Source of the DNA: Halorubrum alkaliphilum
Lineage (GTDB): Archaea; Halobacteriota; Halobacteria; Halobacteriales; Haloferacaceae
Direction of reading: 5' to 3'
DNA length: 38,835 nucleotides
Assembly (NCBI RefSeq): GCF_017873815.1
Contig: NZ_JAGGKQ010000027.1
Coordinates: 1-38,835, forward strand
This document shows positions 671-14,041 of the stretch, piece by piece. The notes beneath the pieces are model-generated. The model worked only from the letters and a program-made list of their open reading frames with translations, was not told the origin of the DNA and ran no database searches. Made by a program: the position numbers and the translations under genes. How positions within the stretch are numbered: position 1 is the first letter of the stretch; each line of letters begins with the position of its first letter.

Positions 671-1561
671 ATGAACGTCCCGCGTAGCGAACTCCTCACG
701 CAATTACGGGCGCTCGACGAGTACGAATTCGAGAAGTTGATCGCAGACATCTGGAAGTACAGAGGATGGGACACCACCGTCACAGATCAATCCAGAGACG
801 GCGGCATCGACGTGATCGCCAGAAAGGACCTCCCGTTCGACCAAAAGCAACTCATCCAAGCCAAACGGTACGCCAAGGACAACAAGATCCGCCTCAAGCA
901 TGTCCAGCAGTACAGCAGCCTCTATCTGGACAAGAGCCCGGACCGTGACGTCGACGCCGATGTCGTCGCGCTTGTGACGACCAGCAATCTCACCCAGCCC
1001 GCTCGCGAGAAGGCGGCCGAACACAATCTCCGGATTGTCGACGGAGAGAAGCTCACACAGATGATCGTCGAGTGGGACCTCTCGGAGATCATCTCCGACT
1101 ATATCGATCCCGACGCCGAGTCGGAGTCGGCGTTTCACGACGATATCGACACCTCCGTCGAAACGTACGAGGGCTCACGCAATTGGGCGATGGTCGAAGA
1201 ATTCAACGGGATGACAATCTCCTCAAGTGAGGATATGAAACTCACCGCCACCGTCGACGAGACACTGGCGTACACGGTTCACCACGGCCAGTCCTACCAG
1301 AACAACCTCGAAGAACGACGAAACATCCACTATCTCGACGGGCTCGATGACGAACAACTTGACCGGCTCAAGTATATCGCCAACGACCTCGGGATGCGAT
1401 TCTTGCTCGGGGACAGGCCAAACGAATGGAAAATCTACGACAAGGGCGAGGGGCCGATTGACCCCCATCGAACGGTCGAGATCGGAATGCGGATTTTGAA
1501 CGGCGTCTTCGGATCGGCGTTCGGTGATGCCGACATCGATGTCGCAGTCGGCAACCGATAG
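671..1561 (+). CDS. Mrr-type restriction endonuclease (type IV-like)
   Basis: A 296-residue protein. Residues about 15-120 match the Mrr_cat fold: YEFEKLIADIW, then GW, then RDGGIDVIA, then LIQAKRY. In PD-(D/E)XK terms D47 and the Q63-A-K65 triad are the catalytic signature, with Glu19/21 as the helix acid. Family members cleave modified (often methylated) or foreign DNA. Residues about 120-296 form a separate domain with no recognisable motif, perhaps for target recognition. It heads the plus-strand accessory cluster and is followed after 30 bases by a gene carrying the shared leader element. A defence role is inferred; the modification it might recognise is unknown. The transglycosylase-like gene 2.2 kb downstream raises the possibility of a link with 7-deazaguanine DNA. 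Confidence 0.85.
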   Translation: MNVPRSELLTQLRALDEYEFEKLIADIWKYRGWDTTVTDQSRDGGIDVIARKDLPFDQKQLIQAKRYAKDNKIRLKHVQQYSSLYLDKSPDRDVDADVVALVTTSNLTQPAREKAAEHNLRIVDGEKLTQMIVEWDLSEIISDYIDPDAESESAFHDDIDTSVETYEGSRNWAMVEEFNGMTISSSEDMKLTATVDETLAYTVHHGQSYQNNLEERRNIHYLDGLDDEQLDRLKYIANDLGMRFLLGDRPNEWKIYDKGEGPIDPHRTVEIGMRILNGVFGSAFGDADIDVAVGNR

Positions 1562-3293: not shown

Positions 3294-3704
3294 ATGAATT
3301 CCGATAGCGCACCAACGACCAGCAGCACCGACACCGGACTGTACTTCGACGACGCCGAGGCACTCGCCCAGCAGTATCGCGAAAAGCGAGACACGATCAA
3401 GCGGAAAGAAGCGGCACTCACGGCGCTCAGCAAACGTCTGGAAACGATCGACTGTGATATCGGCGGCGCGAACCTCGATATCGACGACGACGGTGTCATC
3501 ACCGTCTCGATATCGAGTCCGCGATTCCCCGACGAGGTCAAGTCGATGCTCCACGATTTTCAATGGCCCCGAAAGTTCGCCACCGGCTACGATACGATGT
3601 CCCGCTGTCTGACCTGGAGCCTGAAAACCGACATCGAGACGCTGATCGAAGACCACGAACGAATCCAGCAGCCACAGGGTCGCGCCGTCCCGCAGACAGC
3701 TTGA
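3294..3704 (+). CDS. Hypothetical protein, 136 aa, coiled-coil N-terminus
   Basis: The protein has a disordered Ser/Thr start, a charged helix likely to be a coiled coil (about residues 20-55, EALAQQYREKRDTIKRKEAA), then a short beta-rich domain (DIDDDGVITVSISSPRFPDEV). The family is not recognised. No ribosome binding site is obvious upstream, though GAGAGGAGAAGAG lies about 30 bases before the ATG. Its place just before the transglycosylase-like gene makes a functional link possible but unproven. Confidence 0.6.
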   Translation: MNSDSAPTTSSTDTGLYFDDAEALAQQYREKRDTIKRKEAALTALSKRLETIDCDIGGANLDIDDDGVITVSISSPRFPDEVKSMLHDFQWPRKFATGYDTMSRCLTWSLKTDIETLIEDHERIQQPQGRAVPQTA

Positions 3705-3751: not shown

Positions 3752-4882
3752 ATGCAAGAAGACGTTAAACAGCGAATCTTGGCGAATCGGAGCGCCGTCG
3801 TCGACATCTACCTGTCGGGGGGCAACGGCCGGATGTTCTGGCCGTGTCGGCTCCAACCGTTCGATGAGTCGATCCCCACCGTCCGGCGCAGCTCCTCAAA
3901 GTACATCATCGACTCCGGGTTTAACGAGCCGGAGACCAACACGGACACCCCGGTCAACGCCACGCTGGGCGATTTTGTGGGCGAAAGCACGTCACAGAGT
4001 GAGCCGTCGCGAGACGCCCCAATCTCGGGGCCGGACATCAAGGAGCTCGTCGACGCCGCCTACGAGCGACGGGCCGACTATATCATTCCCAACGACACGG
4101 TGAACACGCCCAATGTGGCGATGCGAACGGCGATCGAAGAGACCGCAGAGAAGGTCGATGCCTTCCTCGATTACGTCGACGAGACCACCTTCCCGGCGAC
4201 GGTTATCGTCCCCCTCCAGCCAAACCATGCGCTCCACTTTGCGTATCTGGCAGAGCACTACCCGCGACAGGCGAAGCGCGGCCACTTCGCACTCGGCGGG
4301 ATGAAGAACCTCACGCTCCACGAGCAAGTCGCGTGTATCCGAGGCTTCCGTGAGGTCGCAGGGTATGAGCCGTCCGTCCACGCTTTCGGTGTGGGCTCCT
4401 CTCGCGTGCTCATCGAAGCCCTGCGGGATGATCCGGCGTTACTCCAGTCGGTCGACTTTTCCACGCCGCAACACCACGCCACCTCCGGCCGTATCGCCGG
4501 GACCTCGCGCATTCCGATCTACGTTGGGACCGCCCAGGGGACCGACAGTGCAAGCACCTGTGCTCAGCTGATGTCGGCAGAACTGATGGACATCGCTCGG
4601 ATGCTCTCACCGACAATGACGACCGACGAGGACGTGCGAGTCCGGTGGGACCAGTTCGAGAAATACCACAAGCGTCTCGAGAAGAACATCCTCGAAGCGA
4701 ACCCGAACTTCGAGTGGGAACTGCTCAAGGAGCGATACACTTCGTTCGATCAGCTGGTGGCCTCCAGCAGCGACGACCAGATCGACACGGAGTTGCTCGA
4801 GGACTTCCGGGACAAGTTGACTGACCATCTCGATCAGGAGACGTTCGGCGGTGGAGCGAACGCGGCCCTCGGATCCACCTGA
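3752..4882 (+). CDS. tRNA-guanine transglycosylase / DpdA-like enzyme
   Basis: A 376-residue protein whose motif order follows the TGT barrel. IIDSGF (D54-S55-G56) matches the TGT DSGGF substrate pocket, IIPND (D115) a second acidic site, and FALGGMK (G182-G183) the GG[LM] loop. VHAFGVGSS (210-217) matches the TGT GVG loop, and SVDFSTP (D235) sits where TGT has its nucleophilic Asp (FDCVMPTR). TGTs exchange guanine for a 7-deazaguanine in tRNA; DpdA paralogues do this in DNA. The CxCxxC...H zinc site of tRNA enzymes is not visible and only one Cys is nearby, so a non-canonical DpdA-type role is more likely than archaeosine synthesis. A partner-like paralogue lies at 6204-7130. Assignment rests on motif reading and not on alignment. 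Confidence 0.6.
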   Translation: MQEDVKQRILANRSAVVDIYLSGGNGRMFWPCRLQPFDESIPTVRRSSSKYIIDSGFNEPETNTDTPVNATLGDFVGESTSQSEPSRDAPISGPDIKELVDAAYERRADYIIPNDTVNTPNVAMRTAIEETAEKVDAFLDYVDETTFPATVIVPLQPNHALHFAYLAEHYPRQAKRGHFALGGMKNLTLHEQVACIRGFREVAGYEPSVHAFGVGSSRVLIEALRDDPALLQSVDFSTPQHHATSGRIAGTSRIPIYVGTAQGTDSASTCAQLMSAELMDIARMLSPTMTTDEDVRVRWDQFEKYHKRLEKNILEANPNFEWELLKERYTSFDQLVASSSDDQIDTELLEDFRDKLTDHLDQETFGGGANAALGST

Positions 4883-4941
4883 GAGCAGTTGACGAACGCT
4901 GGCGCGAACAAGCACAATAGCACACAGCACACAGCACGGCA

Positions 4942-4955
4942 GTACACTTTTACAG
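4942..4955 (+). promoter_or_regulatory. Likely TATA box of the HTH-MazF module
   Basis: ACACTTTTACAG lies about 27-30 bases upstream of the ATG at 4977, in the position expected for a leaderless haloarchaeal promoter. It indicates that the toxin-antitoxin pair is transcribed separately from the gene before it. Confidence 0.4.
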
Positions 4956-4976
4956 TCGTAGTCACAACGAGGAACC

Positions 4977-5411
4977 ATGACAATGGACATAGAAGAGTTC
5001 GAGGCCGCGGGGGACGAAGACAGCGAACTCTCCACCAGCGAAGCCATCGTGAAGTTCCTTCTCGAAAATCGGGACCAAGCATGGAAGCGCAGTGAGATCG
5101 CAGACAAGATCGACCGCGACCCAAACACCGTCGGAACAAATCTGAGCCGACTGAAGGAGCGCGGTCTCGTCCGCCATCGCAAGAACCACTGGGCGATCAC
5201 GAACAACCGCGAACAGATCATTGAGGCAATCCGGTTCTCAAATGCGCTCTCAGCTCTTAACGAGTCATTTGGGCCGACCATCGAGAGTGAACAGGAAGCG
5301 AAAGAGTGGAGCGATGCACAACCGGATCAGCCACATCCAAGCACCCTTGACACTAAAGATGAATCTACTATCCACCTCGATCTCGACGAGGGGAATAGCA
5401 CAGACCGATGA
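4977..5411 (+). CDS. Winged-helix protein, probable antitoxin/regulator of the MazF-like toxin
   Basis: A 144-residue protein. Residues about 20-75 form a winged helix: SEAIVKFLLENRDQAW, RSEIADKIDRDPNTVGTNLSRLKERGLVRHRKNHWAI. This is the MarR/IclR-like layout in which the NTVGTNLSRLKERGL helix would enter the DNA groove. The tail (80-144) is acidic and low in complexity, as expected for a segment that wraps a toxin. The stop overlaps the start of the toxin gene (ATGA at 5408-5411). A second in-frame ATG at 4983 is an alternative start. The antitoxin role is inferred from the overlap; haloarchaea often pair HTH proteins with PemK/MazF toxins. Confidence 0.7.
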   Translation: MTMDIEEFEAAGDEDSELSTSEAIVKFLLENRDQAWKRSEIADKIDRDPNTVGTNLSRLKERGLVRHRKNHWAITNNREQIIEAIRFSNALSALNESFGPTIESEQEAKEWSDAQPDQPHPSTLDTKDESTIHLDLDEGNSTDR

Positions 5412-5800
5412 GGAGACAACGGGGCGTCGAATACGAAGTAGGAGACGTTGTCTGGACTGTCGATCCGTTCAAACTCGGTAGCGACGTCAGCCGAATGTTC
5501 GCCGTGATCTCCACAGACACATACCCATTCGAAGACCAGCAATTCATCGGAGTGGCGATCACCACCACTTCCCATCTCATCAGCCACCCACTCCCCGACA
5601 GATACTGGGATGTGGGGAGAACACCAGAAGAGTCGTATATTCTTCCACTCTCCATCCACAGCCCGAAGGTTTCAAACATCCAAGCACCGCCAAACTATGA
5701 CGCAATCACGGACCCATGGCAGGGTCGGCTCAAGTCAGAATTCGTCGAAAAAGTGATCGGAGAGATTACTTTCACACTTAACCTCAAATCCCGATACTAA
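5408..5800 (+). CDS. PemK/MazF-family toxin (mRNA interferase-like)
   Basis: A 130-residue protein with the MazF-like SH3 barrel order: EYEVGDVVWTVDP at the first strand (the G-D-V-V-W motif), SRMFAVISTDTYPFEDQQFIGVAITTT in the core, then SYILPLS and a terminal helix (EFVEKVIGEITFTLN). The family cleaves RNA at short sequences and arrests growth unless held by its antitoxin. The ATG overlaps the upstream HTH gene stop by four bases. The length is close to the usual 110-130 residues and nothing looks truncated. It sits between the transglycosylase-like gene and its putative paralogue. Confidence 0.7.
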   Translation: MRRQRGVEYEVGDVVWTVDPFKLGSDVSRMFAVISTDTYPFEDQQFIGVAITTTSHLISHPLPDRYWDVGRTPEESYILPLSIHSPKVSNIQAPPNYDAITDPWQGRLKSEFVEKVIGEITFTLNLKSRY

Positions 5801-5807
5801 CCCGCGA

Positions 5808-5842
5808 TCGGGAGGGGTTTGTAGCCTCCGAGAGGAGGTGAG
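5808..5842 (+). promoter_or_regulatory. Shared leader element, copy 4, with strong ribosome binding site
   Basis: GGGAGGGGTTTGTAGCCTCC is followed by GAGAGGAGGTGAG and the ATG at 5843. CCTCC (5825-5829) and GGAGG (5834-5838) form a five-pair hairpin with a GAGA loop that would sequester the Shine-Dalgarno sequence. This is the clearest hairpin of the six leaders. Confidence 0.55.
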
Positions 5843-6178
5843 ATGGAGACAAAAGAGAAAGAAGAACTCGGCGTCAGAACGCGAACCCGAACGGAGGGCC
5901 GCATCGAGGGCATCCTCGAGCCGGCGTTGTTCGAAAGTCAAATCGACTCCGAGACAGATCTGTATTGGGGACTCCCAGTAGAGTTTTTCACCGTCGAACA
6001 CGGCTCCGTATATCTCGACGCGAAGGTCGCCAACGAACTCACGTGGATGGTGACCAGCCACATCGGTTCGACACTCGAGATCACCGCACTCCCGCAGAAA
6101 TTCGTCGTCGACGACACCGAATACGCGGTGAACCCCGGCTTCTGGGCATCCACGATCGACGAATCCGAAATCCGGTGA
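5843..6178 (+). CDS. Hypothetical protein, 111 aa
   Basis: The start at 5843 lies three bases after a GGAGGTG site. The N-terminus is charged and helical, and the rest is beta-rich (GLPVEFFTVEHGSVYLDAKVANELTWMV ... LEITALPQKFVVDDTEYAVN). It appears soluble and acidic. I do not recognise the family. The next gene begins 25 bases after its stop, so it is probably cotranscribed with the transglycosylase-paralogue gene. Confidence 0.6.
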   Translation: METKEKEELGVRTRTRTEGRIEGILEPALFESQIDSETDLYWGLPVEFFTVEHGSVYLDAKVANELTWMVTSHIGSTLEITALPQKFVVDDTEYAVNPGFWASTIDESEIR

Positions 6179-6203
6179 GCCACGGCTCAGCGACACCCCC
6201 ATC

Positions 6204-7130
6204 ATGAACAGCCTTTCACAGCACATCGCAGACGACGACGACCGAACCCGCATCGCGTCGCGTTCGGATATCGACGTGTTCGTTCCGAAACTCGATGACT
6301 CTCGCTACGTGTCGGATCTGGCGGGCGACTATTGGCCATACCGGTCGGTCACTCTCGAACAGGCGTGTGAACTACCAAAGGCAGTCGAACGAACGCGCCG
6401 CCGGACACAGACACTCCGACTCGTCGACAATCGACCACCGGGAAGCAACTTCCCGTTGGACCTCTTCGAGACGGCCAACAACGCTCATGTCGACGAGGTG
6501 CTCCCGGCGAGTTACACTGGGACGGCGAGAGACGCGATCGCGGACGCGGTTCGGCTGTACTCCAACTACGATTTCCAGACAGAGCCGACGCTCATCATCC
6601 CGGTCGTCCCGCCGTTCGAAATGACCGGAGCGTGTATCAAGCATCTCCTGTACGAAACCGACAGACCCAGCGGGCTGAAGTCGATCAACAACCCGACCGA
6701 CTTCGCCATCCGTGGGCTCTCCTCGCGAACACAGAGTTACGAACAGTTCAAAGAGATCCTCATGACGATCGAGAGCGTCCTCGAGGGTGGCGTCAATGTA
6801 AACATCCACGCCCCCCATGTGAGTGTCGACCTCATCCGAATCGTTCGCAACCACAGCGGGCTCATCAACTCCGTGACGCTCCCCCACGACGCAGCAGGGC
6901 TCGCAACCACCGAATCGACATCGTATCTCTCAGCGAAAGGCGCGGAGAATCTCACAGCCGACTCGTGTCCGTTGGTCCAACTCGCTGGCGAGTTGAGTCT
7001 GCTCACGAGCGACTTGATCGACGACGACCGGGTGGCGGCCGCACTCGCCGAGTCGAGCATCCCAGACCTCGCACCGGAAACGCCGAAGCCGGACGCCACA
7101 GGAGTCGAACGTCAGTCGACATTCTCGTGA
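6204..7130 (+). CDS. Putative catalytically inactive TGT/DpdA-like paralogue
   Basis: A 308-residue protein that follows the same pattern as the enzyme at 3752-4882. LRLVDNRPPGS (D75) lines up with IIDSGF, VDEVLPASYTG with ADYIIPNDTVN, and TLIIPVVPPFEM with TVIVPLQPNHAL. DFAIRGLSS lines up with HFALGGMKN, NIHAPHVSVDLIRIV with VHAFGVGSSRVLIEA, and LINSVTLPHD with LLQSVDFSTP. The key acids are lost: Ser103 replaces D115 and Thr225 replaces the nucleophile D235, and the DSG pocket has become DNR. The pair recalls the catalytic/non-catalytic heterodimer of eukaryotic TGT (QTRT1/QTRT2). This is inference from manual alignment; structure prediction would settle it. Confidence 0.5.
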   Translation: MNSLSQHIADDDDRTRIASRSDIDVFVPKLDDSRYVSDLAGDYWPYRSVTLEQACELPKAVERTRRRTQTLRLVDNRPPGSNFPLDLFETANNAHVDEVLPASYTGTARDAIADAVRLYSNYDFQTEPTLIIPVVPPFEMTGACIKHLLYETDRPSGLKSINNPTDFAIRGLSSRTQSYEQFKEILMTIESVLEGGVNVNIHAPHVSVDLIRIVRNHSGLINSVTLPHDAAGLATTESTSYLSAKGAENLTADSCPLVQLAGELSLLTSDLIDDDRVAAALAESSIPDLAPETPKPDATGVERQSTFS

Positions 7131-7170
7131 AGACACCGCGAAGACACACGACCCAAAACACCAGAATCCT

Positions 7171-7481
7171 ATGACAGACGACACCGATGAGACCTCGTTC
7201 ACGCTCCACGTTCGCCACGAAGGATACCACGCTGACCAATTCACTCCACACACGCAGATCAACCGGTTTTACCTCGTCGGCTCGGGGACACCATCTGCGG
7301 AACGGCTCGTCGAGACACATCTCTACGCGATCGCAGACGCTGTTATCGGTGACAAACACAGTCTGTCGGACGTCCTACTCCGTGGGATCATCACCGATAT
7401 CGGGAATCCACTCGATATCCAAGTGGTGGACAAAGAGACGTACGCCGACCACGACGGAGCCACGACCTTCGGCCCCCACCT
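7171..7481 (+). pseudogene. 5' part of an unknown gene split by the TnpB element
   Basis: Codes for about 104 residues (MTDDTDETSFTLHV... to TTFGPHL) before the sequence runs into the left end of the insertion sequence. The open frame continues to 7638, but those codons belong to the element. Joining this part to 8877-9078 restores one frame (H-L-G-D-I-W at the junction) and a protein of about 170 residues. The family is not recognised. It lies 40 bases after the transglycosylase-like paralogue and was probably the last or next gene of that operon. Confidence 0.65.
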
Positions 7482-7573
7482 AATACAGCGAGGGAGTCCC
7501 GCCGTTCACGGCGGGCGGGAATCGCGCCATGAGCAACACCCAACCGCAAAACACTATGCTAACCAACTCCCCA

Positions 7574-7586
7574 ATTTATATAAATA
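7574..7586 (+). promoter_or_regulatory. TATA box of tnpB
   Basis: ATTTATATAAATA is centred about 30 bases before the ATG at 7611, a near-ideal haloarchaeal TATA box for a leaderless transcript. Confidence 0.6.
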
Positions 7587-7610
7587 CATAGCACCACATG
7601 TGATGTGTAG

Positions 7611-8834
7611 ATGGAGCTTCAACGTACCGCTGTCGTGAAACTCTCCGTTCCCAACGACCGCCGGGACGACCTGAAGGAAACAATGGATACCTTCAGGAAC
7701 GCCGCCCAGCGGTTCGCTGATCGAGGATGGGAGGGCAACAACGACGGGTACGTGATTACCTCTCGCTCCCAGCTTCAACCATACCTCTACGACGACATCC
7801 GAGACGAAACCGGATTGCACTCTGACCTCTGTGTTGCTGCGGTCAACCATGCCGCCCATGCACTTCGTGGCGTCGTTGATCGCATGAAAGAGAGTGAGAA
7901 AGTTTCCAAGCCGGTGTTCACGTCGAACACGACCGTTTACAATACCAGTGCAATCAGCTATTTTGATGGGTATTGTACGCTTGCCGCCTACGGCAGTGGT
8001 CGTGTAAAAGCCGAATACGTCTATCCAGACGATTCCATTCAGGCTGAGTACATGGAATCAGACGAATGGGACAAACAGGGGGCGAAGCTCCGATACGACC
8101 AGCAGACAGATACCTACTACCTCCACGTCTCAGTCAAGCAGGAACGTGACGACACGCAGGAAGAAGCCGAGGGCCGAACAGTCCTTGGCGTAGATCGCAA
8201 CGTGGACGGGTATCTCGCTGTGACCAGCTCCGGTGCGTTCATCGGTAACGCAGACCTGTTGAACCACAAACGCCGTGAATACGAACGCCGACGCGGCAAC
8301 CTACAACAGACCGGAACGCGATCAGCCCATCTCACAATCCAGTCGATTGGTGATCGCTTCGCCAATTGGAGCGAGAACTATCTACACAATGTGTCGAAAG
8401 AGGTAGTTACTGAGGCTGTCGCCAACGGGTGTAAGACGATTGTACTGGAAGACTTAGAGAATATCCGAGAAGCGGTATCGAATCTCTCAAAGTTCCAGCA
8501 GTGGGCGTTTCGAGAGCTATCGCGGAAGATAACCTACAAGGCGAAAGCTGAAGGAATCACTGTTGAAGTGGTGAATCCAGCCTACACAAGCCAGCAGTGT
8601 AGTCATACCGAGTGTGGGTTCACACATGAGGATAACCGCGACGGCGATGAGTTTGTGTGTCAGAAGTGCGGCAAAGAGCTACACAGCGACTACAACGCGG
8701 CGCGAAACATAGCAGCGCGGTATCTCCGGAATCGGCGTAAGTCTGGTTCCGGAGGGGCAACCAATCACCTTGCCCTGAAGTCAGGAACAGTGAATGGGAG
8801 CGGCGATTTCACGCCCACCGTATCACGCGGGTAG
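7611..8834 (+). CDS. tnpB: TnpB RNA-guided endonuclease
   Basis: A 407-residue, apparently intact TnpB. RuvC-I is LGVDRNVDGYLAV, RuvC-II is IVLEDLENIRE, and RuvC-III is HSDYNAARNIAAR, so all three catalytic acids are present. Between II and III lies a four-Cys zinc finger (QQCSHTEC ... CQKCG). The N-terminal helical segment (residues 1-150) is the usual recognition and wedge region. TnpB proteins, guided by an RNA copied from the element's right end, cut DNA at the donor site and favour retention of the element; they are the ancestors of Cas12. The C-terminus is rich in Gly and Ser. The reading frame overlaps the start of the right-end RNA region. Confidence 0.92.
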   Translation: MELQRTAVVKLSVPNDRRDDLKETMDTFRNAAQRFADRGWEGNNDGYVITSRSQLQPYLYDDIRDETGLHSDLCVAAVNHAAHALRGVVDRMKESEKVSKPVFTSNTTVYNTSAISYFDGYCTLAAYGSGRVKAEYVYPDDSIQAEYMESDEWDKQGAKLRYDQQTDTYYLHVSVKQERDDTQEEAEGRTVLGVDRNVDGYLAVTSSGAFIGNADLLNHKRREYERRRGNLQQTGTRSAHLTIQSIGDRFANWSENYLHNVSKEVVTEAVANGCKTIVLEDLENIREAVSNLSKFQQWAFRELSRKITYKAKAEGITVEVVNPAYTSQQCSHTECGFTHEDNRDGDEFVCQKCGKELHSDYNAARNIAARYLRNRRKSGSGGATNHLALKSGTVNGSGDFTPTVSRG

Positions 8835-8876
8835 ACCGGGAGTTCATTGACAAACCCCGGCGTTTACGCCGGGTGT
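8735..8876 (+). ncRNA. Predicted omega (re)RNA scaffold at the right end of the element
   Basis: In characterised TnpB elements the guide RNA scaffold overlaps the 3' end of tnpB and stops at the right edge, and the guide is the flanking DNA. Here the region includes the right-end hairpin at 8856-8873. The natural guide would begin at about 8877 (AGGTGATATCTGGAACTACC). The 5' boundary is a guess; haloarchaeal IS1341 elements are known to make sense-overlapping transcripts of this kind. Confidence 0.4.
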
Positions 8877-9078
8877 AGGTGATATCTGGAACTACCGCGA
8901 GACGACACTGGAGAGAGGGCACTCCCACGTTCCCGCTATCGAGAACCCAACAAAGAAGAAACTCATCGACGCGGCACAGACACTCGACGAGGAACACGAA
9001 CGACCCACGACCGCGAGCGACGACCAGGTGTCGCTAGATGGCTTCGACACTTCTGCCGGCGACCTAGATTTCGCGTGA
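8877..9078 (+). pseudogene. 3' part of the gene split by the TnpB element
   Basis: Starting with the codons GGT GAT ATC TGG AAC after the element, the frame reads D-I-W-N-Y-R-E-T-T-L-E-R-G-H and ends DGFDTSAGDLDFA at TGA 9076-9078 (66 codons). It has no start codon of its own and continues the frame of 7171-7481. The tail is acidic and helical. The last gene product would be about 170 residues. Confidence 0.65.
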
Positions 9079-9086
9079 CCCCACCG

Positions 9087-9120
9087 TGAGAGTTTGTACC
9101 CCCCGAAAGTAGGTTGAAGG
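9087..9120 (+). promoter_or_regulatory. Shared leader element, copy 5
   Basis: GAGAGTTTGTACCCCCCGAA followed by AGTAGGTTGAAGG and the ATG at 9121. ACC and GGT can pair weakly around the CCCGAAAG loop. Confidence 0.45.
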
Positions 9121-9480
9121 ATGGAAAGTATCCCAGTGTACCTCAAAGAGATTTTGGACGAAGCAACCAACTACTACGAGCGCGACGAAGACATCTCGCG
9201 AGTGGGCGCTGCCCACGAGATCGCCCACCAGAACGAGTCGTTGGTCCGGATGGACGAAGGCGACCGCGACACGCTCAACGTGCTGCGAGACATTCGAAGT
9301 GCCCACAAGCTGTGTGCCGACGAATTCGAAACGTACCGGCGGGCTCGTGACGCAGAATACGCTGATTCGATTCTGGAAGCGGTCGCGCTTCGATCACTCG
9401 AAGAGCTGATCAACGTCCACCTCGATAGCGAGCAGTCCTTCGACAGCGAAGAAGCGGACGCGGCGGTCGCGACGAATTAA
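9121..9480 (+). CDS. Hypothetical helical protein, 119 aa
   Basis: The start at 9121 directly follows the leader element and GAAGG. The protein is almost entirely charged helix (LKEILDEATNYYERDED ... RDTLNVLRDIRSAHKLCADEFETYRRARDAEYADSILEAV) and strongly acidic. No family is recognised. It comes between two copies of the shared leader and is probably expressed with the neighbouring small genes. Confidence 0.6.
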   Translation: MESIPVYLKEILDEATNYYERDEDISRVGAAHEIAHQNESLVRMDEGDRDTLNVLRDIRSAHKLCADEFETYRRARDAEYADSILEAVALRSLEELINVHLDSEQSFDSEEADAAVATN

Positions 9481-9492
9481 CATCCTGGCCAA

Positions 9493-9525
9493 GGAGAGGG
9501 TTTGTACCTCCCGAAAGGGGTAGCG
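9493..9525 (+). promoter_or_regulatory. Shared leader element, copy 6
   Basis: GGAGAGGGTTTGTACCTCCC followed by GAAAGGGGTAGCGGAG. ACCTC and GGGGT can form a five-pair stem with one G-U pair. The ATG at 9551 is 26 bases further on. Confidence 0.5.
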
Positions 9526-9550
9526 GAGAAGAAGACTTCAAAAAGAAACC

Positions 9551-9892
9551 ATGCAAGAAACCACCGAAGCCGAGCACCTGCAAGAAGCGTACGACGAACA
9601 CGAACTCCCCAAGCCCGGCAACGTCCGATTCAACCCACTACAGGAATCCAACGGGGAGACGGAAATAACGATTAACGTGGGTGACGTGATCGAGCGACAG
9701 AACACGGTGGGCGAAGACATCGCCGTCGAATTCCGGTACGTACTGGAGATGGACGACCACGGCATTGTCGTGTGGGTTCTCGACGACGAACGGTACACCT
9801 ACTACCCGATGGACTATCTCCGAGAGGACCTCACCGAGTACGAGGTGCGAGTCCACGACGACCCGTGGGAAGTCCGGTCGGATGACAAGTAG
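9551..9892 (+). CDS. Hypothetical protein, 113 aa
   Basis: An acidic, beta-rich protein (GETEITINVGDVIERQNTVGEDIAVEFRYVLEMDDHGIVVWVLDDERYTYYPMDYL) with an N-terminal helix. No family is recognised. The alternating strand pattern suggests a small barrel. The next gene starts four bases after its stop, so the two are certainly cotranscribed. The leader element lies 26 bases upstream. Confidence 0.6.
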   Translation: MQETTEAEHLQEAYDEHELPKPGNVRFNPLQESNGETEITINVGDVIERQNTVGEDIAVEFRYVLEMDDHGIVVWVLDDERYTYYPMDYLREDLTEYEVRVHDDPWEVRSDDK

Positions 9893-9896
9893 ATCC

Positions 9897-10217
9897 ATGT
9901 CCGCAGCCAAATCCACTCAATACGGCCGGGGCGGCCCCTACCCCGGAGATTGGGACCGATTCGACCCCCTCAACGGCGACCCGCCGGGCCGCTGGCAAGT
10001 CGAAGCACACACCATCGGTGGGTGTGGCACGCCGGACATCCCCCGGCGAGAGATTGCTATTTGGACCCACCCCACTGAGGGCACGCTCCGGGTCGTCAAG
10101 GAGGCAATCCCAAACGGCTCGTACGTCTTGATGAAGCCGAATGGCGAACAGACTCGCGGGTGTCGCGAAGACATGTTCGACAGGGCAACCTGGTTGATGC
10201 GCCGGCCGACCCACTGA
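9897..10217 (+). CDS. Hypothetical protein, 106 aa
   Basis: The start is the ATG at 9897, four bases after the previous stop; the frame is open further upstream but only antisense-like codons precede it. The N-terminus is Gly/Pro-rich with aromatic residues (YGRGGPYPGDWDRFDPLNGDPPGRW) and the C-terminal half is beta-alpha with two Cys. No family is recognised. The next gene begins five bases after its stop. Confidence 0.6.
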   Translation: MSAAKSTQYGRGGPYPGDWDRFDPLNGDPPGRWQVEAHTIGGCGTPDIPRREIAIWTHPTEGTLRVVKEAIPNGSYVLMKPNGEQTRGCREDMFDRATWLMRRPTH

Positions 10218-10222
10218 AAACG

Positions 10223-11494
10223 ATGAGCTCACCGTGGACAATCTCGATACGACCGCCGTTCCGCGATGGCTGTTGGGCCATTCTCAGAGCCCGCTTCACC
10301 GACGCACAGTACTGGGAAGCAGACTCCAAACAGGAGGCAATCGACCGGCTCAAAGCCGGGATCGAGAACCCACGAGCAGTCCCCGGAGACAACCCACCAG
10401 TATCGCGCAAAACGGTGCGAATAGACGCTCACGAGGACTTCGAGAAGAGCATCACCCCCGAGACGCTGTTCAAGGACCAAGTCGGACTGGGGAGTTTCGG
10501 GCAAACCACGACAGCGGAACCCTGGCACGAGAAACAACCCGAACGCGAACATATCGAACCGCTCTACGACTCGGAAGTCGTGCTTCACGCAACAGACGGC
10601 GAGGGGCCAGTCGATCACCCATCGAGTTGGAACTGGGACTACGCGATCTGGGCGGCCCATGATACCGAGAACGTATTCGACGTCGTACTCCACCAGCCTG
10701 CCCGGTACGAGTGGACTACGACGACCATGGAGACCTCGGAGCTACTGCGGATACTGCAAGGCCGTTGGCACACACAGGGGAGTGCTCACCTCAAGCAGTT
10801 CTACTTCGAGAAATCAACAGAGGACGCCGACGACCCGTACCTCGCTTGGGAACCGGGCGGAATCGATATCGTACCGCGCGCAGAGACGCCGTTCGATCAG
10901 GCGTGGGACTACTGTCCCGGTGTGCCGATGGAACTCAACGGCTGGAAATACGATCCCCACGCCTCACTCGCTCGTGAGGTCTGGCGAAGCGAGATCGGCC
11001 CGGAACGCAGAGTCGAACTCCACCACACCTACGACGAGTATTCGTTCCTGAAAGTGTACGACAGTCGTGTCTCGGGGGCCGACGCCGCAATGATTCCGGA
11101 TAGGTTCGATTCAAAAGTCCAATCAGAAACGCCAGCTACGGAACTACGCGAGAAAGCGGTCGGGTGGATGCGACAACACAGCCCGGCTGGGGTCACCTAC
11201 CCGGCGTACGACAGGCGACTACTTGAGACGCCACCGGGGTGGGACCTCGACAAGTCACCGGGGGTCCGATACGGAAACGAGTTCTACATCCGATACCGGA
11301 AAGAGACAGCCCCAGAGCAGGACGCCGACACACTCATCGAAATCGCGGGCGCTCCCAAGGGGACGAACTACACACTCACGCTCATAGAGCGTGAAGACGC
11401 CGTCATCACGAAGAAAGACGAAGCCCCGATCAACGTCCCCGAAAACTGCTCGGGTATGAATGGGAGAAGGCCAGCAACATCGACCTGCTTCTAG
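10223..11494 (+). CDS. Large hypothetical protein, 423 aa, with a possible C-terminal frameshift
   Basis: The start is taken at the ATG at 10223, just after the previous stop; an in-frame ATG at 10160 overlaps that gene. The protein is soluble, acidic and rich in Trp and Tyr, with no recognised domain. Residues 1-50 look like a separate small beta unit (WTISIRPPFRDGCWAILRARF). The last 15 codons read as an unlikely Cys/Arg/Ser-rich tail. Adding one C in the CCCC run at 11437-11440 gives KLLGYEWEKASNIDLLLV and a stop at 11499, which looks more like protein. It ends the left-hand plus-strand cluster; a T-rich stretch follows. Confidence 0.6.
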   Translation: MSSPWTISIRPPFRDGCWAILRARFTDAQYWEADSKQEAIDRLKAGIENPRAVPGDNPPVSRKTVRIDAHEDFEKSITPETLFKDQVGLGSFGQTTTAEPWHEKQPEREHIEPLYDSEVVLHATDGEGPVDHPSSWNWDYAIWAAHDTENVFDVVLHQPARYEWTTTTMETSELLRILQGRWHTQGSAHLKQFYFEKSTEDADDPYLAWEPGGIDIVPRAETPFDQAWDYCPGVPMELNGWKYDPHASLAREVWRSEIGPERRVELHHTYDEYSFLKVYDSRVSGADAAMIPDRFDSKVQSETPATELREKAVGWMRQHSPAGVTYPAYDRRLLETPPGWDLDKSPGVRYGNEFYIRYRKETAPEQDADTLIEIAGAPKGTNYTLTLIEREDAVITKKDEAPINVPENCSGMNGRRPATSTCF

Positions 11495-11550
11495 TTTAGT
11501 GTTGTTCTGATTCTCTCGTCATTTGTGTCTGAGATTCAATGCTCCGGGAG

Positions 11551-11573
11551 AATTATTTTTTAACCACCGGTGG
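11551..11573 (+). terminator. Probable T-tract terminator after the left cluster
   Basis: AATTATTTTTTAA lies 57 bases after the last stop and is followed by the palindrome CCACCGGTGG (11564-11573). Archaeal terminators are mostly T-runs, so this is a reasonable 3' end for the operon. Confidence 0.4.
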
Positions 11574-11661
11574 AGGTGAGGCGTAATTTAAGAGACAATT
11601 AAGAACAGAAGCTAATTCCAGCTGCAGAGCCGCTCAAAAGGCGAAATGACCAACTCACAGT

Positions 11662-11687
11662 TTGTGACACTCATATAAAAGTCACAA
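11662..11687 (+). promoter_or_regulatory. TATA box flanked by inverted repeat TTGTGAC / GTCACAA
   Basis: TTGTGAC (11662-11668) and GTCACAA (11681-11687) enclose ACTCATATAAAA, which contains a TATA box. A dimeric repressor bound here would block TBP. The site lies upstream of the small-protein/winged-helix/nuclease operon starting at 11767; the winged-helix product is a candidate autoregulator. Confidence 0.55.
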
Positions 11688-11725
11688 CCGACTCTCTTCA
11701 ACTCACGCACGATTCCTGACGGAAC

Positions 11726-11749
11726 CCTCCGGCGCTGAGACGCCGGAGG
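11726..11749. repeat. Perfect 9-base-pair hairpin in the operon leader
   Basis: CCTCCGGCG-CTGAGA-CGCCGGAGG. It resembles the hairpins at ends of haloarchaeal IS200/IS605-type elements and also could act as a leader attenuator. No transposase gene is near, so it may be a solitary end. Confidence 0.45.
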
Positions 11750-11766
11750 AGTCGTGTTGCAATCCA

Positions 11767-11934
11767 ATGACAGCAACCAACCCAAACAGGGTCAGGAGTG
11801 ATAACTCTGGTTCCCAGAGTGCCTCACTCGACACTGACCCACTGACACACCGCGTTGTACAGCCCAGTTCTCAAATCCCGCCGAACCGTCGCCAGCGAAA
11901 TGCCGGTCGAACAATCATCGTGGGGTCGGTCTAA
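11767..11934 (+). CDS. Small basic protein, 55 aa, first gene of a tight operon
   Basis: ATG at 11767 to TAA at 11932-11934, encoding MTATNPNRVRSDNSGSQSAS ... ending AGRTIIVGSV. It is Ser/Asn/Arg-rich and probably disordered. The stop is immediately followed by the GTG start of the next gene, with no spacer, and the promoter at 11662-11687 is correctly placed. No family is recognised. Evidence is positional; it could be a leader peptide rather than a stable protein. Confidence 0.4.
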   Translation: MTATNPNRVRSDNSGSQSASLDTDPLTHRVVQPSSQIPPNRRQRNAGRTIIVGSV

Positions 11935-12321
11935 GTGACCGAAGCCACCGACGATCCGACCTCGTTCGCCATCCCGATGGATCCAGACCGTGCGTTCAAC
12001 GCAATCGCAAACAGTCGTCGCCGGCGCGTCTTGCTCTCACTCTCACAGTCGCATGGAGCAACTACCGCAGGTGATCTGGCCGTCGAAATCGCCGCCATCG
12101 AGAATGCGATTGACCCCAGTAAAATCAGGAGCAACGAACGCACCTCAGTCTACATCTCGCTGACCCAATCGCGTCTCGAGACGCTCGATGAGTGCGGCGC
12201 AATCGCGTTTGATGACCGATCGAAGTCCGTCTCTCCGACAGACGCGACCGAACCCCTCGCCGAACACATCCGCCGACTCCAGACTGCGTGTTACAAGCCA
12301 GATTCGGAGGAGTCCCAATGA
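11935..12321 (+). CDS. Winged-helix protein (DUF7344-like haloarchaeal family)
   Basis: A 128-residue protein starting at GTG 11935. The order FNAIANSRRRRVLLSLSQSHGATTAGDLAVEIAAIENAID ... RTSVYISLTQSRLETLDECGAIAFDDRSKSV matches the haloarchaeal winged-helix domain found in many DUF7344-type proteins: N-RRR-VL, an LA-IAA-E helix, VY-SL-Q, LD-CG-I-D. These proteins bind DNA as regulators. It overlaps the next gene by four bases (ATGA at 12318). It may repress its own operon through the inverted repeat around the upstream TATA box (inference). Confidence 0.75.
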   Translation: MTEATDDPTSFAIPMDPDRAFNAIANSRRRRVLLSLSQSHGATTAGDLAVEIAAIENAIDPSKIRSNERTSVYISLTQSRLETLDECGAIAFDDRSKSVSPTDATEPLAEHIRRLQTACYKPDSEESQ

Positions 12322-13001
12322 CCGAGTATCAGCCAGAACTGGAGACGCTCAGAGACATCGACACGAGTTTCCACCGGCTGTTCGAGGCGGTCCACGACTC
12401 TGAGACCCCTTCCATGGCGGGGGATGACCCACTCTCCACACTACGGCGGGCACGGGCACAGATCGACGCCGCACTGTTCGCGTATCGTCGCCGAACTGAG
12501 GACGCCACGCTCGCTGATGACGGGACGTGTCTCCTCCAGTGGGACCCACCGAGTGCTCCGCCTCGCCGCCTCCGGTTCGAGCCCGACAGTAGCGGCGAGA
12601 CGTGGACCCGTCGCGAATGGGAGTGGACTGGCGCTGAGTGGCGTACCTGTGGGAGTGACCGCCTCGACAACGTCGCGATCCGCGCGCCAGCAGCCACCCG
12701 GTACCCTGATCCCGTCGACCCGACACCGCTCGGAACGATGGTTGAGTGGATCCGTGACAGCTGGACGCGTCCAGATCCGCCTGCGCTCGTGTTCGCGAAG
12801 ACGGCCACCACCGAGCAGGGTGTAGTCGTCTCCGTCGACGGCGAGCTCCGCTACCGGGAGCGGGATAGCCCACAGTGGTATCCTGCGACGACAGACGAGT
12901 TCTACCACCACCTTCGCACTCATGGACAGCCAACGCTCCTACCGCTTTCAGAAACCGCACTGACTCGCCATGACTTCACTCCCAGCCCGCTCTCTCAATG
13001 A
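12318..13001 (+). CDS. Hypothetical protein, 227 aa, coupled to a nuclease gene
   Basis: The start is the ATG at 12318, overlapping the upstream stop; the frame is open to 12288 but without justification. The first 70 residues are helical (LETLRDIDTSFHRLFEAVHD, RRARAQIDAALFAYRRR). A central Trp-rich beta region (TWTRREWEWTGAEWRTCG) and a C-terminal domain (ALVFAKTATTEQGVVVSVDGELRYRER) follow. No family is recognised. The stop overlaps the nuclease start by four bases (12998-13001). The fixed coupling with a PD-(D/E)XK protein suggests a shared complex. Confidence 0.65.
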   Translation: MTEYQPELETLRDIDTSFHRLFEAVHDSETPSMAGDDPLSTLRRARAQIDAALFAYRRRTEDATLADDGTCLLQWDPPSAPPRRLRFEPDSSGETWTRREWEWTGAEWRTCGSDRLDNVAIRAPAATRYPDPVDPTPLGTMVEWIRDSWTRPDPPALVFAKTATTEQGVVVSVDGELRYRERDSPQWYPATTDEFYHHLRTHGQPTLLPLSETALTRHDFTPSPLSQ

Positions 13002-14041
13002 CGGACGAAACACTCTCGCTTCCACCGGGATTCGATCGTGGACTCACCCAGCTTATCGACGCGATCGAGACGCTCCGGGACGCTCTCTCAGACGAGGAGA
13101 CACTTACGACCGTCCAAGCTGTCACCACACGGCGGCGGTTGTTCCTCGCGCTTTACGCGCTCAAAGCGATCCGTCGACAGCTTGCGGATACAGAGCATCG
13201 CCCGTCCCAAGGCGATCATGAGGTGGTGACGTGGGACGACCCTGCTCAGGCACTGTATCACATCAAACTACGTCTCGATCGGCTGCTTGAGGATCTCTCT
13301 ATTCAGGGGTACGACCACTCCTCACAAGAGTATTCGATCGAGCAAACACTCGAAACGATTCGAGACCACATCGTCATTCTTCAGGATGCACTTTCTGAGG
13401 GGTCGACGGATAACTCCACGCTGCTTGAGAAACTCTCCAGTCACCGATCAGTCTATGCAGACGTGGCTGGGCGTGGGGTTGGCGATGGGCGATGGCTTGA
13501 GTATCAACTCCAGCGGGCGTTGATGCGGTGGGGGTATCAAGCAGAGACGCGCCAGCACCTGTTCGGTCTCGAGGTCGACGTCGTCGCCAACCGGAAGCCA
13601 AAACAACAGCAGCCGACTGATTGGATTGTCGCTCAGTGTAAAGACTGGACGAGCGACACGATCACGCCGTCGACGATCTTCCGGCTGTGTACGATCGCGT
13701 TTGCCTGCCGGGCCATGCCGGTCCTCTGTCATACGACCGATATCACAGCTCGGGCTGAGGAGCTCGCCCGTCAGTTCGAAGTCCGAGTCCTCGATCTACG
13801 GGATCTTGAACGTGGTGCGCTTCCTGCGCCCCAAGTGTACAAGCCATCGGCTGAACTCAACGAGTGGCCTCCACAGAACAACGTTCGTGACTATCGGGGC
13901 ACTCTCCCCGTGATGTTCTACGGAGAGCCTGGCAAACGGTTCAGCTACGTTCCTGGCTTTTCTCCCGTGGGGATGGACTACGACTACGAACCGATCGATA
14001 CGGACCGAGACGACGATACTCATCCAGCTGCTGGACACTGA
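12998..14041 (+). CDS. PD-(D/E)XK (Mrr-like) nuclease with N-terminal helical domain
   Basis: A 347-residue protein. Residues 1-150 are helical with repeated leucines (LTQLIDAIETLRDAL, ALYALKAIRRQL), possibly a dimerising module. Residues about 165-275 are the nuclease: GRWLEYQLQRALMRWGYQAE, LFGLEVDVVA (D194), WIVAQCKDW (Q213-C-K215), then a Rossmann-like stretch with PVLCHTTDITARAEELA. This is the core of Mrr-type and Holliday-junction-resolvase-like enzymes. The C-terminal 70 residues are unassigned. Its start overlaps the preceding gene. A restriction or DNA-processing role is inferred. The same frame continues after the TGA for 43 codons (see 14042-14173). Confidence 0.75.
   Translation: MTDETLSLPPGFDRGLTQLIDAIETLRDALSDEETLTTVQAVTTRRRLFLALYALKAIRRQLADTEHRPSQGDHEVVTWDDPAQALYHIKLRLDRLLEDLSIQGYDHSSQEYSIEQTLETIRDHIVILQDALSEGSTDNSTLLEKLSSHRSVYADVAGRGVGDGRWLEYQLQRALMRWGYQAETRQHLFGLEVDVVANRKPKQQQPTDWIVAQCKDWTSDTITPSTIFRLCTIAFACRAMPVLCHTTDITARAEELARQFEVRVLDLRDLERGALPAPQVYKPSAELNEWPPQNNVRDYRGTLPVMFYGEPGKRFSYVPGFSPVGMDYDYEPIDTDRDDDTHPAAGH

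Follow-up and report, generated by a model that had tools for sequence, protein, structure and literature searches.

A DpdA-like transglycosylase homologue and its predicted pseudoenzyme paralogue on a putative mobile element of Halorubrum alkaliphilum

The P1-P2 locus

The stretch of DNA analysed here (the window; 38,835 nucleotides) is the whole contig C27 of the draft genome of the haloarchaeon Halorubrum alkaliphilum (NZ_JAGGKQ010000027.1); since the Cdc6 and ParA genes present on it fit such an assignment, the contig is probably a plasmid or large element. Its two genes of interest, P1 and P2 (Table 1), had been described in an original prediction, made from the letters of this DNA alone, as open reading frames with a shared barrel motif pattern; both were found where they had been placed and every quoted motif was recovered. 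In P1 these are IIDSG (D54), IIPND (D115), ALGGM (positions 180-184), VHAFGVG (H210) and SVDFSTP (D235); in register with them, P2 contains LVDNR (D75), VLPAS (S103 at the D115 position), AIRGL (168-172), IHAPHV (H202) and SVTLPHD (T225 at the D235 position). In Halohasta litorea and Halorubrum laminariae, too, P1 and P2 lie on either side of the gene for the 111-aa protein. Among the subset of window genes scanned with Pfam, no DpdB-like ATPase was seen.

Table 1. Positions and characteristics of P1, P2 and surrounding features in the window
Feature	Position	Strand	Characteristics
P1, DpdA-like transglycosylase homologue	3752..4882	+	376 aa; D54, D115, H210, D235
P2, divergent P1 paralogue, predicted to be catalytically degenerate	6204..7130	+	308 aa; D75 kept, S103 for D115, T225 for D235
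111-aa protein, function unknown	5843..6178	+	Pfam: nothing above cut-off
930-bp insertion separating P1 from the remainder of the unit	4884..5813	+	blastn against the Halohasta litorea locus (L067)
Winged-helix gene within the 930-bp insertion	4977-5411		helix-turn-helix (HTH) library matches
130-aa gene within the 930-bp insertion	5408-5800		no library match
136-aa conserved upstream gene, function unknown	3294..3704	+	syntenic with Halohasta and Halorubrum laminariae
Mrr_cat restriction endonuclease	671..1561	+	PF04471, 6.8e-24; neighbour outside the conserved block

Relation of P1 to DpdA and TGT

Relatives of P1 were gathered from 391 genomes of the class Halobacteria, 26 of which contained one according to single-sequence search and 30 according to profile search; the weakest of the profile-found relatives were proteins of the DpdA/TGT type (TGT: tRNA-guanine transglycosylase) and not close kin. 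The P1-family profile comprised 28 cellular haloarchaeal proteins (29 sequences with gp33 of Halorubrum tailed virus 29, HRTV-29). Compared by hhalign, it matched a phage DpdA profile set (the protein of phage 9g, five more from phages and a haloarchaeal PF23859 protein) with a probability of 97.8% (E 9.8e-13) and TGT with 93.8% (E 1.7e-7), the best E-value of the controls (shuffled and reversed alignments) being 0.019. In the genome searches, the P1-family hidden Markov model (HMM) retrieved a Pfam-called DpdA (PF23859, 1.2e-18) at E 2.9e-10. P1 itself stayed below the curated cut-offs of PF01702 and PF23859 (no match), which limits its label and not its homology; three of the 28 P1 relatives matched the TGT model weakly (best 4e-4). 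The profile search against TGT and DpdA families that had been suggested for P1 was thus negative for the single protein and positive at the level of family profiles. The top PDB sequence match of both family profiles was DpdA 7ui4, weak and not significant alone (E 0.31 and 0.07).

D54, D115, H210 and D235 were invariant in all 29 P1-family sequences. A conserved histidine (H196 in phage 9g) marks DpdA and is absent in DpdA2; in the alignment, P1 H210 coincided with this residue (VHAFGVG versus KVHGFG in 9g), and the DSG / D / GG / HGFG / D motifs of 9g-type phage DpdA (PF23859) were in register with those of P1. D54, located in the DSG motif, corresponded to D102 of TGT and D235, at the nucleophile position, to D280, the catalytic roles of both TGT residues having been described (PMC6165067). 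The C-terminal Cys-rich zinc site present in the aligned rows of an aTGT (L001) and TGT was missing in all P1-family rows. From the family-profile matches and the invariance of D54, D115 and D235, P1 is very probably an enzyme of the TGT/DpdA superfamily; its earlier description as a TGT/DpdA relative that keeps the expected acids holds. It differs from phage DpdA and Salmonella DpdA (7ui4) in having no single-sequence or Pfam match to them.

A viral member of the family has been published: gp33 of HRTV-29 (Dpdavirus) is a stand-alone DpdA homologue of a virus that lacks preQ0 genes and is thought to use host preQ0 (PMC8651126). The protein was found by the P1-family HMM at E 6.1e-67, was nested in the P1 family (support 98/93) and shares with P1 the same invariant residues and the lack of preQ0 genes beside it; unlike P1, it is virus-borne, 243 aa long and paired with a DUF6884 "YaaA" gene, and no dead paralogue was annotated or found near it, in contrast to P1 with P2 in the window. 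Three scans of viral contigs yielded no P1 relative, the viral member having come from an annotated phage collection.

Some further observations concern individual members of the family. The PF23859 DpdA retrieved by the HMM adjoins a P1-family gene (L063, 6257-8558), which overlaps the start of the DpdA gene and represents another pairing with a second TGT-type protein. A stop-broken P1-family gene at G365:C76:84974-85545 (L064, L096) is probably a decayed copy. In the direct library scans of P1 and P2, a match to UxaC (8e-4, under its cut-off) was rejected as partial and spanning the region past the barrel motifs.

P2 as a divergent paralogue of P1

By pairwise comparison alone, the relation of P2 to its neighbour P1 was undetectable. 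At the family level, the P1-family HMM (28 proteins) found P2 at E 5.4e-11 in a set of approximately 500 proteins predicted from the retrieved loci, the P2 HMM found P1-family members at 2e-5 to 1e-3, and hhalign related both families with 98% at E 2e-13 (E 9e-14 with HRTV-29 added). Compared in the same way with the P1 family, 20 column-shuffled P2 alignments gave E-values of at least 0.019 (probability at most 2.4%), the reversed P2 alignment 0.41, and unrelated local families 0.24-0.41. Because the profile matches are strong and the controls clean, P2, as judged by its sequence, is a real, far-diverged P1 paralogue. It retains the N-terminal and barrel motifs across approximately 190 columns. 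At the positions of D115 and D235, none of the three P2 lineages has kept the aspartate; the one corresponding to D54 persists in two of them and is missing from Salinibaculum. In all likelihood P2 would therefore be catalytically dead, and its original designation as a probable paralogue devoid of the second and third acids is supported by the family-level match and by both losses throughout the lineages. Despite the loss of catalytic residues, P2 is under purifying selection: the ratio of non-synonymous to synonymous substitution rates (dN/dS) between the window and Halohasta was 0.116 for P2, 0.085 for P1 and 0.307 for the flanking gene at 1592 (single-pair estimates; P1 dS near saturation, 1.0).

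Distribution of the pair

P2 was carried by the genome of the window, G283 (probably Halohasta litorea), G414 (same genus as the window; probably Halorubrum laminariae), G174 and Salinibaculum sp. KK48. The Halorubrum laminariae locus (L068) holds both P1 and P2 and is a near-identical copy of the Halohasta litorea locus (L067); the 99.96% identity of this 21-kb region suggests a very recent intergeneric transfer or an assembly mix-up. Wherever the neighbourhood of P2 was read, P1 was adjacent to it. The P1 genes accompanied by P2 formed one clade (support 99/96), and P2 was seen only beside members of that clade; the P2 proteins formed a clade of their own (100/100) with long branches and an uncertain position in the tree.

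Genomic context of P1 relatives and preQ0 supply

In HRTV-29 and seven cellular loci, the direct neighbour of the P1-family gene encodes DUF6884, a domain reported for DpdC (PMC11888242). In five of these cellular loci (L049, L052, L054, L055 and L060) the gene row was P1-family, DUF6884, DUF6884, TGT, HATPase, GmrSD (the first DUF6884 and the TGT of L060 being shown by six-frame search); a large helicase gene upstream in L049 was DpdJ-like (2.4e-52), with a homologous gene in L052. With its two transglycosylase homologues, and with a DpdJ-like helicase next to it in at least two of the loci, this operon resembles a modification-restriction system of the Dpd type in archaea; the DUF6884/TGT/GmrSD context of P1 relatives is good circumstantial evidence, at the level of gene content, that points to DNA modification and restriction. 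In bacterial Dpd islands (dpdA-K), DpdJ-like, DUF6884/DpdC-like and TGT genes are likewise assembled; the arrangement of second TGT, HATPase and GmrSD distinguishes the haloarchaeal loci from them.

preQ0 should be available in the host, as QueC-, QueE- and QueD-like genes (named from their sequences, not by family search) are located on its contig C18, next to two TGT genes. In this segment (L065, G000:C18:20000-39000; 5027-13679), the Que-like genes adjoin a TGT-DUF5591 fusion (660 aa), a DUF6884-like gene, the second TGT (414 aa) and an HATPase, after which come large genes that may be defence-related; it is probably a Dpd-like island with two TGTs.

Two other gene families recur near P1-family genes. 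PP-loop genes (PAPS reductase family) are present in L038 (12124-13521) and L044 (4851-6161), and the DpdA-like gene of Rhizobium phage RHph_TM3_3_3 likewise has a PAPS reductase gene nearby. In L041 (6083-6826), L044 (7547-8407) and L058 (5862-6671), the P1-family gene is overlapped at its start by a member of a conserved family of 247-286 aa; the one member of that family scanned had no Pfam match.

Proposed function and alternative explanations

According to the proposed mechanism, P1 would be a short guanine transglycosylase of the DpdA type that most likely forms a heterodimer with P2, its catalytically dead paralogue. By analogy to D102 and D280 of TGT, both catalytic aspartates would come from P1, with D54 acting as acid/base and D235 as nucleophile; P2 might constitute the second half of the dimer that binds or places the nucleic acid, a role suggested for QTRT2 in its pairing with QTRT1. 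The heterodimer would exchange guanine for a 7-deazaguanine, presumably preQ0 or a derivative, in DNA, the target probably being that of the carrier mobile element itself; preQ0 would be provided by the archaeosine pathway of the host, and the modification may give protection against restriction. The chances that P1 and P2 represent such a two-subunit DpdA-type enzyme, consisting of a catalytic member and a pseudoenzyme and acting on DNA with host preQ0, appear evenly balanced.

In eukaryotes, TGT requires an inactive partner; its bacterial and archaeal counterparts have been described as homodimers (PMC6165067). QTRT1/QTRT2 resemble P1/P2 in the combination of a catalytic member with a paralogue of degraded catalytic residues, and are unlike them in their tRNA specificity and the presence of the zinc site; furthermore, both acids are replaced in QTRT2, whereas the first is kept in two of the three P2 lineages. 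There is no evidence for a common origin of the two pairings. To our knowledge, the pairing of a catalytic with a pseudoenzyme transglycosylase is known only from eukaryotic tRNA TGT, and the phage and Salmonella DpdA systems that we know of use one DpdA and not a catalytic/dead pair; no report of such a DpdA pair was found in the open-access literature, which is weak evidence of novelty. An archaeal, mobile-element-borne two-subunit DNA 7-deazaguanine transglycosylase, whose catalytic/pseudoenzyme design was reached independently of the eukaryotic tRNA TGT, is proposed tentatively, at somewhat less than even chances. If this were true, a prokaryotic pair acting on DNA would offer an independent system for asking what the inactive subunit does, and 7-deazaguanine DNA modification would extend to haloarchaeal mobile elements outside viruses. 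The P1 family itself is a protein family missed by standard models.

Several observations weigh against the two-subunit enzyme. Scanned singly against Pfam, NCBIfam, PADLOC and PHROG, neither P1 nor P2 matched a TGT or DpdA model, and P2 matched none of the library models. The AlphaFold models were unreliable (mean predicted local distance difference test, pLDDT, of 39.6 for P1 from four sequences and 35.5 for P2 from a single sequence), and the fold of P1 was for this reason inferred from sequence profiles; a Foldseek search with the poor P1 model (xylose isomerase first; many TGT entries, with probabilities up to 0.99 and E-values all above 0.02) was not used as evidence. A direct relation of P2 to DpdA/TGT profiles was undetected, P2 being linked to them only via P1. 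The pair is represented by only four distinct loci and one near-identical copy. The DUF6884 HMM found nothing on the window contig, which, unlike the bacterial Dpd islands, thus contains no DUF6884/DpdC-like gene. Three genes separate P1 from P2 in the window. Most P1-family members, finally, occur without P2, so that P2 is not needed for the basic reaction of the family.

On account of these P2-free relatives, which include HRTV-29 gp33, the main rival explanation is that P1 works alone, as a homodimeric and self-sufficient DNA transglycosylase similar to DpdA, and that P2 has been repurposed for a task of its own, for example inhibition, regulation or the binding of DNA in modified or unmodified form. 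The distance between both genes in the window and the stronger divergence of P2 between the same loci (29-30% identity versus 34-48% for P1) agree with this explanation; it is nevertheless rather unlikely in view of the strict co-occurrence and neighbouring position of the genes in all loci found and of the N-terminal and barrel motifs retained by P2. An action of both proteins on RNA (tRNA or other), as a plasmid-borne TGT variant, would be in line with the tRNA TGTs included in the superfamily and matched by the P1 profile, and with the tRNA-specific precedent of QTRT1/QTRT2 (PMC6165067). However, P1 lies nearer to phage DpdA (E 1e-12) than to TGT (E 2e-7) and is devoid of the zinc site, its relatives are found in Dpd/GmrSD restriction operons and a tailed virus, and the host already has an aTGT of its own, which renders an RNA substrate improbable. 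That P2 is not TGT-like and owes its resemblance to P1 merely to chance or a similar composition would conform to its missing direct DpdA/TGT match and failed structure model, and is very hard to reconcile with the HMM match (E 5e-11), the hhalign probability of 98% with clean controls and the motifs in register.

Features outside the conserved unit

The original prediction had placed the pair next to an Mrr nuclease and a toxin module. The Mrr gene is real, but its region has no counterpart in L039 or the Halohasta litorea locus (L067). The presumed toxin module lies in the 930-bp segment that starts directly after the P1 stop codon: according to blastn, window positions 4883/5814 adjoin positions 11132/11133 of the Halohasta litorea locus, which leaves 930 bp extra in the window. 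Since this segment is missing from the sister locus, the winged-helix and 130-aa genes are outside the conserved unit; the toxin assignment of the 130-aa protein had no support from the library scans. Both the HTH/130-aa pair and Mrr were consequently rejected as system members on the basis of synteny with the loci of relatives. Downstream of P2, a second segment missing from the Halohasta locus (7455-8881) bears a TnpB-like gene (7611-8834) and seems to have shortened the gene at 7171 (155 aa in the window versus 227 aa in Halorubrum laminariae).

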